In this document: positions 11,475 to 24,189 of the stretch, piece by piece | How positions within the stretch are numbered: position 1 is the stretch's first letter | Layout: every line of letters begins with the position of its first letter | Virus record (IMG/VR): IMGVR_UViG_3300009149_000276 | Span: 1 to 24,210 of that record | DNA from: a virus | Length of the DNA: 24,210 nucleotides | Direction: 5' to 3' (one strand) | The notes under the pieces: generated by a model | The model's input: the letters and a program-made list of their open reading frames with translations, nothing else | Database searches by the model: none | Told to the model about the DNA's origin: nothing | Program-made: the position numbers and the translations under genes

Positions 11475-11792
11475 GTGGATTTCAAGAATAAGATAAACCA
11501 ACAAAGCAGAGATGAATTGATTACAGGTCAATTATTTTTTCGTCAAATGGGAGCCGCAATGGAACTTGATATGTCACACAGAAGTCTCTTTGCAGTTGTT
11601 GGATTAATTGCACTTCCTCAAAAACATTTTTTAATTAAAACAGAATATCAATATACAATTGCTGGGTGGGGAGATCTCTATGAAGATGGTCTTATTATAG
11701 GAATTGATCTAACAACAGCAAAGAATTTAAAAACAGTAGCACGTGGCGATAACATAGGTTCGTTATTAACAAAACCTGTCTGGAGGATATGA
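11475..11792 (+). CDS. Unknown protein, 105 aa, GTG start
   Basis: A 105-residue protein starting at GTG 11475, with AAAGGAG 7 nt upstream. It is first in the rightward operon leading into the nicotinate phosphoribosyltransferase gene, 4 nt away. The C-terminal half (TEYQYTIAGWGDLYEDGLIIGIDLTTAKNLKTV) suggests a small beta-rich fold. The context hints at an NAD-related role, but I see no motif to support one. Confidence 0.65.
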   Translation: MDFKNKINQQSRDELITGQLFFRQMGAAMELDMSHRSLFAVVGLIALPQKHFLIKTEYQYTIAGWGDLYEDGLIIGIDLTTAKNLKTVARGDNIGSLLTKPVWRI

Positions 11793-13143: not shown

Positions 13144-13185
13144 AATTGCCTCTTTTATTTAGAACAAAAAATAAAAGAGGCAATT
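13144..13185 (+). promoter_or_regulatory. 17-bp hairpin covering the homing endonuclease ribosome binding site
   Basis: Arms 13144-13160 and 13169-13185 are perfectly complementary (17 bp, 8-nt loop). The right arm contains AAAAGAGG, the Shine-Dalgarno sequence of the ATG at 13189. Transcripts reading through from the tRNA side would fold it shut. A start inside or after the left arm would leave it open. Confidence 0.75.
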
Positions 13186-19011: not shown

Positions 19012-19141
19012 TGACAAGAGAGGTCTGGAAAAAGAAAGTTTGGTCTACTCCAGTTCAGTGGAAAGGATGCGAGTTATAGTAAGACAATGGTTCGCCAAAC
19101 AGCCCAATCTTACATACTGCGGACGCATTGTGCTCTTGTCA
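19012..19141 (+). ncRNA. Candidate structured RNA, 130 nt
   Basis: A 9-bp perfect closing stem, TGACAAGAG (19012-19020) with CTCTTGTCA (19133-19141), encloses CTGGA/TCCAG, ATGCG/CGCAT, GTAAGA/TCTTAC and a TGG-TTCG-CCA hairpin. It has no good frame. It begins 4 nt after tRNA-Ser(GCT) and ends shortly before a cysteine-motif gene, so it could be released by tRNA 3' processing. Confidence 0.6.
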
Positions 19142-21965: not shown

Positions 21966-22135
21966 ATGGGGAAGCAAAACGTAGATTCCATATAATAAAA
22001 TGTGGAACAAATTATACAATTAAAAAGAGATTCGGACCTTTTTGGTTCTATGTAAGAAAAGGGTTTAAAAAACTATCATTTACTGATTTTGGTGATGTAG
22101 TTAGATATGTTAATGAAAGAAGGAGAAATAAATAA
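21966..22135 (+). CDS. Small basic protein with apparent 1-nt frameshift at its start
   Basis: AAGGGAGG (21949-21956) points to ATG 21966, but that frame stops after nine codons. The frame one base away runs to 22135 and reads GEAKRRFHIIKCGTNYTIKK, then FGPFWFYVRKGFKKL, a convincing small phage protein. One extra G in the GGGG run at 21968-21971 would join them into 56 residues. So either a base is lost (natural or in sequencing), or an ATT at 21959 starts translation. The stop overlaps the next ATG. Confidence 0.5.
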
Positions 22136-22782
22136 TGCTGTGTAGTTATGGTTGCGGAAGGCCAGGAATACATTATTTCAAAAGAGTGAATAAATGGTGT
22201 TGTGAAAAGCAGCATCAAAAATGTCCGGTAAACAGAAAGAAATATTCACAACCTGGAAATAAAAATCCTATGTATGGTAAAGAATGTGTATTTAAAGGTA
22301 AAACAAAAGAAAACTACACACCATTAAAAATAGTTTCTGAAAAGATATCTGAACATCATAAAAAAGGTAATATAAAATGTTATTTTCTTAATTATTGGAC
22401 TGGTAAAAATCACACAGAAAAAACTAAATTAAAAATAGCTAAAAAAATGCGAGGGAATACTTACGGTAAGGGAAGAGGAATTAGAACTATTTATAATGAT
22501 ATAACATTTAAATCATCTTGGGAAGCTGAAGTTGCTAAATTTCTTGATTTAAATAATATAAAATGGAATTATGAAGAAAAAGAATTTATATTAAGTGATA
22601 CCGAATCATACAGACCTGATTTCTTTATTTATGAAAATAATTCATTTGTTAAACTTATAGAAGTTAAAGGTTATTTCAGAAAAGAAAATAAAATTAAATT
22701 TCAAAAATTCAAACAAAAATACCCTGAAATTCAAGTAGAATTATGGGATAAAAAAATTTTAAAATCTAAGAATATAATTTAA
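22135..22782 (+). CDS. Homing endonuclease: zinc knuckle, NUMOD3-like, PD-(D/E)XK-like
   Basis: A 215-residue, Lys-rich protein after AGAAGGAGAAATAA. The N-terminal CSYGCGRPGIHYFKRVNKWC knuckle matches that of the HNH gene at 13189. KNPMYGK and GKNHTEKTKLKIAKK look like NUMOD3 DNA-binding repeats. The C-terminal third, FKSSWEAEVAKFLDLNNI, then YRPDFFI and IEVKGYF, matches a PD-(D/E)XK nuclease core (PD...E-x-K). It ends 1 nt before tRNA-Tyr, so it is lodged in the tRNA cluster. It likely cuts phage genomes lacking it. Confidence 0.8.
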   Translation: MLCSYGCGRPGIHYFKRVNKWCCEKQHQKCPVNRKKYSQPGNKNPMYGKECVFKGKTKENYTPLKIVSEKISEHHKKGNIKCYFLNYWTGKNHTEKTKLKIAKKMRGNTYGKGRGIRTIYNDITFKSSWEAEVAKFLDLNNIKWNYEEKEFILSDTESYRPDFFIYENNSFVKLIEVKGYFRKENKIKFQKFKQKYPEIQVELWDKKILKSKNII

Positions 22783-22783
22783 T

Positions 22784-22871
22784 GGGGGGTGTTCCTAACA
22801 GCGGGCTGTAAACTCGTTGCCATAATATGTTAGGTGGGCGGCAAGAGGTTCAATTCCTTCACCCCTCACCA
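22784..22871 (+). tRNA. tRNA-Tyr(GTA), atypical D and variable arms
   Basis: 88 nt with encoded CCA. Acceptor GGGGGGT/ACCCCTC (one G-T). Anticodon arm GCGGG-CTGTAAA-CTCGT gives GTA. T-arm AGAGG-TTCAATT-CCTTC is imperfect. Only 10 nt separate acceptor and anticodon stems, so no normal D-arm forms, while the variable region is 26 nt. CCTAACA (22794-22800) is fully complementary to TGTTAGG (22828-22834) in that variable loop. Confidence 0.78.
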
Positions 22872-22874
22872 GTT

Positions 22875-22969
22875 TGCCGGGGGGTAAAAACGAAAAGGAA
22901 TAGGATTTGATGCTGGTAAAACCGTTAAAATGAGATTTCCACTCAGAGCATCGCTTCCACCCCCCGGCA
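22875..22969 (+). ncRNA. Twin structured RNA, copy 1
   Basis: 95 nt closed by a perfect 11-bp stem, TGCCGGGGGGT (22875-22885) with ACCCCCCGGCA (22959-22969), and followed by TTTTT. Inside: GATGC/GCATC, a GGT-AAA-ACC hairpin and TGAG/CTCA around loop ATTTCCA. Copy 2 at 23148 has the same plan with altered but still paired bases. It starts 4 nt after tRNA-Tyr and ends before a small gene. Confidence 0.75.
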
Positions 22970-22986
22970 TTTTTAAAGGTGCTAAT

Positions 22987-23145
22987 ATGACAACAGTAAT
23001 GAGAGATGGGGAATGTTATGAAGTCATAGATGAGTGTGGAGATATGTATGCTGTATGTGTAGTTTTTAAATTTGCTGATTTTCCATATCTTAGAGAACTA
23101 AAACTTTGGTGGGAAAAGAAACATTGCACTGTTGTAAAAAAATAG
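22987..23145 (+). CDS. Small protein between the twin RNAs, 52 aa
   Basis: A 52-residue protein from ATG 22987 (AAAGGTG upstream); an earlier in-frame ATG at 22930 lies inside the RNA element and is rejected. MRDGECYEVIDECGDMYAVCV suggests a small beta-barrel-like start. Its stop is 2 nt before the second RNA copy, so gene plus RNA may have moved as a unit. Function unknown. Confidence 0.6.
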   Translation: MTTVMRDGECYEVIDECGDMYAVCVVFKFADFPYLRELKLWWEKKHCTVVKK

Positions 23146-23147
23146 TT

Positions 23148-23242
23148 TGCCGGGGGGTAAAAAGAAAAAGGAATAGGAAGAAGATGCTGTCAAAGACGTT
23201 AAATGAGATTTCCTCTCTTTGCATCTCTTCCACCCCCCGGCA
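23148..23242 (+). ncRNA. Twin structured RNA, copy 2
   Basis: 95 nt with the same 11-bp closing stem (23148-23158 with 23232-23242) and following TTTTT. AGATGC/GCATCT replaces GATGC/GCATC, GTC-AAA-GAC replaces GGT-AAA-ACC, and GAG/CTC keeps loop ATTTCCT. The unpaired stretch AAAAGGAATAGGA and the linker CGTTAAA are unchanged. Confidence 0.75.
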
Positions 23243-23252
23243 TTTTTAAAGG

Positions 23253-23330
23253 TAATATATTAATTATCTAATGTCTATAAGTATATAGAACATACATAAA
23301 ATTTCAAATTTTAAAGGGGATAATATACAG
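23253..23330 (+). promoter_or_regulatory. AT-rich gap with promoter-like sequence
   Basis: The gap after RNA copy 2 contains TATATTAATTA, shared with the rightward motif at 7368/11407. It also has TATAGAACATACATA, similar in the same sense to the AGAACATAATA end of the leftward motif. A promoter for the following genes is plausible but the match is partial. Confidence 0.3.
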
Positions 23331-23924: not shown

Positions 23925-24189
23925 AGATTTAACAACTTCTCAGATGGCTGTGCAAGCAGGTCATGCGTTAGCAGCATACTTGTTTCACAGCCATTTTTCC
24001 CGCTGGAAAAATGAAACATTAATATATCTGGGCGTAAAGAACTTGTTTCATTTAGAAAAGTTAAAACTTAAGTTTAAAAAAGATAATATCAAATATATAG
24101 AGTTTCGTGAACCTGATTTAGATAATCAAACTACAGCAATTGCAACTGACATAAGTAACAAATATATTGAAAAGCTTAATTTATTATGA
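23899..24189 (+). CDS. Peptidyl-tRNA hydrolase, Pth2 type
   Basis: A 96-residue protein from ATG 23899 inside the 3' end of the previous gene (AAGG upstream). KLYLIVRKDLTTSQMAVQAGHALAAYLF matches the Pth2 start, with its Lys/Asp and the QAGHA (usually QxxHA) site. W36, the KLKLKFKKDNI helix and the final TTAIATDI strand also fit. Pth2 enzymes free tRNA from stalled peptidyl-tRNA, mainly in archaea and eukaryotes; short phage copies occur. The earlier start at 23674 is a frame shadow. Its place at the end of a tRNA cluster suggests tRNA recycling during infection. Confidence 0.82.
   Translation: MKLYLIVRKDLTTSQMAVQAGHALAAYLFHSHFSRWKNETLIYLGVKNLFHLEKLKLKFKKDNIKYIEFREPDLDNQTTAIATDISNKYIEKLNLL

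Follow-up and report, generated by a model that had tools for sequence, protein, structure and literature searches.

Two paralogous copies of a candidate structured RNA element beside a tRNA-Tyr-like gene in a tRNA-rich phage

A virus record of 24,210 bases (the window), from a group of large phages with long tRNA arrays, carries two 95-nt elements whose ends are constant and whose interior varies yet keeps its pairs. One copy follows a tRNA-Tyr-like gene and the other a small open reading frame (ORF52). We tentatively favour, at somewhat less than even odds, a paralogous, lineage-specific structured RNA module that would be co-transcribed with tRNA-Tyr and would act through a leaky terminator-like end, as a small stable RNA, or as both.

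Results

Genomic setting and layout of the two copies

The DNA polymerase of this phage group is a distant relative of T4-like phage polymerases, and kin phage records reach up to 248 kb. ARAGORN called eleven tRNA genes on the plus strand of the window, between 13057 and 21715. The tRNA-Tyr-like gene, which ARAGORN did not call, is the twelfth; it has an 8-9-bp acceptor stem and an odd D arm, or no normal one, and close counterparts occur in two kin phages (L018, about 11647-11736, and L118, minus strand). Its tRNA-Sec match lay below the Rfam threshold and was rejected as an identity. The protein encoded by ORF52 belongs to no known family, and no relative of it was found.

Two 95-nt elements with the same closing stem, a following T5 and the same plan are present where the initial annotation had reported them (Table 1). 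The arms of the closing stem, TGCCGGGGGGT and ACCCCCCGGCA, are identical in both copies and form 11 perfect base pairs, nine of them G-C. The repeat unit is longer than the element, at about 110 nt (AGTTTGCC...GGCATTTTTAAAGGT, ending AAAGGT), and identity accordingly continues beyond the inverted repeats in both copies, with GTT in front and TTTTTAAAGGT behind. The first A of the copy 1 unit is the last base of the tRNA-Tyr CCA (22871), with the element beginning 3 nt later, while the copy 2 unit opens at the final two bases of the ORF52 stop codon, with the element two bases past the stop. The two copies are the only plus-strand sites in the window at which AAAGG closely follows a T5. The ORF52 start codon lies 17 nt downstream of copy 1, which leaves no room for a promoter between them, such that ORF52, if expressed, would depend on read-through or on a start inside copy 1.

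Table 1 Features of the window around the two copies, and a further element behind another tRNA gene
Feature	Position	Strand	Remarks
Endonuclease ORF	22135..22782	+	NUMOD3 motif, phage endonuclease I-like; directly 5' of tRNA-Tyr
tRNA-Tyr-like gene	22783..22871	+	Anticodon loop CTGTAAA, CCA encoded; weak tRNA-Sec model match
Copy 1 repeat unit (element and shared flanks)	22871..22980	+	Alignment of copies, repeat listing
Copy 1 structured element, 95 nt	22875..22969	+	
Copy 1 P1	22875-22885/22959-22969	+	
Copy 1 A-rich bulge	22886-22902	+	
Copy 1 P1b	22903-22905/22956-22958	+	
Copy 1 P2	22908-22914/22947-22953	+	
Copy 1 P3, AAA loop	22915-22917/22921-22923	+	
Copy 1 junction	22924-22930	+	
Copy 1 P4, loop ATTTCCA	22931-22934/22942-22945	+	
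T5 then AAAGG	22970..22979	+	Likely ribosome-binding site of ORF52
ORF52, 52-aa small protein between copies	22987..23145	+	
Copy 2 repeat unit	23144..23253	+	Alignment of copies
Copy 2 structured element, 95 nt	23148..23242	+	Copy 1 plan, P3 GTC/GAC, P2 AGATGC/GCATCT
130-nt element, not homologous to the copies	19012-19141	+	3 nt behind tRNA-Ser, before ORF 19163

Fold and compensated changes

The predicted RNA folds of the copies have energies of -36.8 kcal/mol (z -3.9) and -40.0 kcal/mol (z -5.2) relative to dinucleotide shuffles. Folded alone, the 73-nt interior gave z values of -1.2 and -1.8, so that the fold significance comes mainly from the closing stem. Folding is just as good on the minus strand; the T5, the direction of the neighbouring genes and a U.G pair, whose minus-strand equivalent would be an A.C mismatch, favour the plus strand.

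Between the copies there are 14 substitutions and two indels. Six of the substitutions fall in paired positions and make up exactly three compensated pairs, two in P3 (GGT-AAA-ACC vs. GTC-AAA-GAC) and one in P2 (TGATGC/GCATCG vs. AGATGC/GCATCT, U.G to A-U), such that the paired internal changes previously noted in these helices are real, with both partners altered in three pairs. Each copy retains all 26 pairs, none being broken, and sliding the partners by 1-3 columns left zero compensated pairs. The corresponding shuffle control, a weak one with two sequences, gave 45 of 500. Under a mutate-and-refold null, at least three compensated pairs, none broken and at least 26 pairs in total arose in 0.2-1.4% of trials, the range reflecting which copy was the parent and whether mutations were confined to the interior. 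Together with the compensated pairs, this supports the earlier proposal of selection on RNA structure, although two sequences do not prove it. All 14 substitutions lie within the inner 62 aligned columns (chance about 2e-4 for a fixed span that long), which identifies the stem and flanks as the constant part.

The conserved stretch AAAAGGAATAGGA was originally described as single-stranded, but its last GGA pairs with TCC in the predicted fold. A loop contact between GGAA and TTCC is possible; both of its sides are invariant, which rules out a covariation test.

Search for known families and further copies

No Rfam 15 family reached its gathering score, which bears out the view that the element matches no known RNA class. 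There were sub-threshold matches only, among which MIR1507 on the minus strand was rejected as an identity at 28.9 bits against a threshold of 73, the others being lower. On inspection, an integron attC site was dismissed because the ends carry no GTTRRRY/RYYYAAC pair, and a 5S rRNA mimic because agreement is limited to the UGCC/GGCA ends. Binding of CsrA or Hfq through GGA or ARN repeats is possible.

Pattern scans of IMG/VR and of GTDB genomes, which require exact loop motifs and thus yield limited negatives, found no third copy, and neither did blastn against INPHARED phages and PLSDB plasmids or a covariance model run on 19 kin phage records, six of which measure 114-248 kb. The closing-stem pattern had no match in IMG/VR. 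There, the pattern AAAAGGAATAGGA..GTTAAA..ATTTCC returned chance matches only (one, L001, folds differently and scored 11.4 bits), and the best covariance score from relaxed patterns was 19.8 bits vs. 127 for the true copies. The sole scoring match in GTDB (L049) was an ordinary terminator hairpin. By sequence, the two-copy element is an orphan with no further homologue; homologues with covariation, whose absence the initial annotation had named as a point against its interpretation, did not occur within the searched sets. The fold appears genuine, but with only two copies known, any function of the 95-nt RNA is a guess.

The same site in kin phages

Three kin phages (G002, G005 and G016) are syntenic here, with tRNA-Val or tRNA-Ala, small ORFs and tRNA-Tyr, and further along a short ORF (missing from G005, or not evident there), an ORF reading MTYKELK... 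and a peptidyl-tRNA-hydrolase-like (PTH2-like) ORF. The elements and ORF52 are absent from the corresponding site in all three, which have other sequence there, and so is the endonuclease gene beside tRNA-Tyr. This absence places the elements within a lineage-specific stretch around tRNA-Tyr. They may plausibly have arrived together with the endonuclease gene, by co-conversion in the course of homing. The contig of G001, a phage with a 91% identical polymerase, ends directly past tRNA-Val and does not reach tRNA-Tyr.

A strong hairpin (z about -5 to -7) lies within the first part of the PTH2-like coding sequence. It is found in four phages, namely that of the window (23942-23996), L017 (14202-14256), L018 (14198-14246) and L118 (minus strand), with stem letters that differ among them and pairing that is kept. 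Long hairpins also lie directly 5' of endonuclease-like ORFs in the window (13144-13185) and in L022 (11575-11625). These share a AGAACAAAA-type loop on different stems, the ORFs behind them have the same kind of Cys-rich N-terminus, and the hairpins may hide the ribosome-binding site.

Structured elements behind other tRNA genes

Across the window phage and its kin, a helix of 8 bp or more begins no further than 25 nt behind 17 of 115 tRNAs, compared to 3.8% in base shuffles. The 17 include tRNAs that had gone unrecognised, plain hairpins preceding endonuclease-like genes and helices that fall within ORFs, and the pattern was noticed after the fact. Candidate elements sit 3-9 nt past the tRNA CCA end, often just before a small ORF, and are unrelated in sequence to the two 95-nt copies. 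The one behind tRNA-Ser in the window (Table 1; also L016 9274-9402) has a 9-bp closing stem (TGACAAGAG/CTCTTGTCA), a possible GTTTGG/CCAAAC pseudoknot and a 90% identical orthologue in G001; it does not fold significantly better than chance (z -1.3) and has no Rfam match. Behind tRNA-Arg, the element at L016 2917-3019 (z -4.6) has a 73%-identical relative at L044 2594-2690. This family, with closing stem ACCACGT/ACGTGGT, occurs near tRNA-Arg in two distant kin phages and has no significant Rfam match; candidate relatives of the L016 element in L058 and L060 were set aside as probable chance matches in coding sequence. A 67-nt element follows tRNA-Val in L118 (z -2.1), and another lies between two tRNAs in L022 (10355-10470, z -5.0).

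Three of these other elements share a layout in which tRNA-CCA, a short gap, the closing stem and a small ORF's ribosome-binding site follow one another. The 95-nt pair thus looks like one case of a habit of the phage group rather than a lone oddity. A broader proposal, to which we assign a low probability, is that these large tRNA-rich phages keep fast-changing, unrelated small structured RNAs directly behind their tRNA genes, the 95-nt pair being one family; tRNA processing would free them to act as a small-RNA pool, for example in phage-host conflict or in protecting phage RNA ends.

Several ORF-less elements lie beside tRNAs of kin phages (L018 2340-2431 and 2440-2517, L121 18737-18834, and the L022 element between two tRNAs), with closing stems of 11-14 bp and mutually unrelated sequences. 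An ORF-less stretch of about 235 nt between tRNA-Val and tRNA-Gly in L022 (11242-11476) has a long closing stem (CATTTCAGTC/GACTGAAATG), matches nothing in Rfam at E values up to 0.5, and looks like another structured RNA. Three kin phages carry tmRNA genes within their tRNA clusters (L017 16212-16562, L118 16086-16471 on the minus strand, and L121 9726-10100). L019 4070-4149 and its kin were rejected as noncoding RNA, as they look coding (FEWIKxHxK). This small-ORF segment, which is present in L120 (9524-9600), L118 (minus strand) and L019, forms a hairpin too, with a closing stem that varies among the three phages and is still paired.

Discussion

In the arrangement that we tentatively favour, both copies would be transcribed from the plus strand along with the cluster of tRNAs and small ORFs, and copy 1 would be parted from tRNA-Tyr as the tRNA 3' end is made. 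The GC-rich closing stem would form the end of the RNA and, with U5, a partial terminator, and would protect against nucleases, to the benefit of either a free RNA about 95-105 nt long or the ORF52 message at its 5' end. The specific part would be the branched interior, including its constant A/G-rich loop, perhaps as a binding site. The fold, the compensated pairs and the position of each copy, 2-3 nt past a gene end and with T5 after it, speak for a co-transcribed module, and the unrelated elements behind other tRNAs make a tRNA-linked RNA end a recurring arrangement. Against it stand a T5 that is short for a terminator, the location of copy 1 just before a ribosome-binding site, a minus-strand fold that is as good, the concentration of fold significance in the closing stem and the restriction to two sequences. 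Most of the 115 tested tRNAs have no such element, indicating that it is not generally needed.

The run of T5, AAAGG and ATG directly behind copy 1 would also suit a cis-acting leader of the following gene, which for copy 1 is ORF52, with control either by attenuation at P1-U5 or by hiding and releasing a start signal. Consistent with this, AAAAGGAATAGGA resembles a Shine-Dalgarno site for an ATG that lies 4-5 nt further on, buried in P2, and reading frames begin within the element, with MRFPLxASLPPPGIFKG common to both copies and its copy 1 frame continuing in frame into ORF52. However, copy 2 has AAAGGT but no ORF in reach, the next start codon being about 80 nt on, the indel between the copies disrupts the first mini-ORF, and there is no match to a known riboswitch family. 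We consider a leader unlikely. The elements could also be read as an elaborate but ordinary intrinsic (Rho-independent) terminator that was duplicated, with the interior a structured loop that has no role of its own. Like such terminators, they have a GC-rich stem (11 bp, 9 G-C) and a T run immediately after a gene; stem and T5 do not vary at all between the copies, and the interior alone folds no better than shuffles. Their 73-nt branched loop is far longer than usual, however, and the element is absent from the output of a terminator scan that allows loops of 3-8; moreover, the T run is only five long, the P2 and P3 changes are compensated, and AAAGG and the start of an ORF follow copy 1 at once. 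We give the terminator little credence.

At the DNA level, constant ends around a diverged interior could mark a MITE-like or recombination repeat that arrived beside the endonuclease gene, with the 11-bp inverted repeats as its working part. The elements resemble MITEs in their short, perfect terminal inverted repeats and in having more than one copy, the stretch and the adjoining endonuclease gene are both missing at the same place in three kin, and MITE ancestry has been proposed for some phage and satellite ncRNAs (PMC7567579). Yet identity extends past the inverted repeats into shared flanks, no target-site duplication is visible, and copies are not many and dispersed, with two in the window and none in 19 kin records. 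Compensated internal pairs would not be expected of such a repeat either. We regard it as improbable.

If real and expressed, the co-transcribed module would define a new family of small structured RNAs in large phages. Of more use is the place to look that it indicates, namely the first few bases after the CCA end of tRNAs in tRNA-rich phage clusters, where several unrelated candidate structured elements not covered by Rfam occur.

GOLLD and ROOL, two structured RNAs of phages, frequently lie near tRNA genes, and an ICP1 transcript of about 800 nt has been called comparable to them (PMC7567579). The likeness of the 95-nt elements to GOLLD and ROOL as structured phage RNAs near tRNA genes is one of setting only, since those RNAs span many hundreds of nt, and the elements here match no Rfam model. 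The T4 tRNA cluster encodes the stable RNAs C and D, short non-tRNA RNAs that are co-transcribed with the tRNAs and for which we know of no function. The candidate 95-nt RNAs are likened to them by setting only: they too lie in a phage tRNA cluster and share its strand, 3 nt behind tRNA-Tyr and in the company of eleven further plus-strand tRNAs, and they differ from RNAs C and D in forming a pair of paralogues, each with a closing stem and T5.
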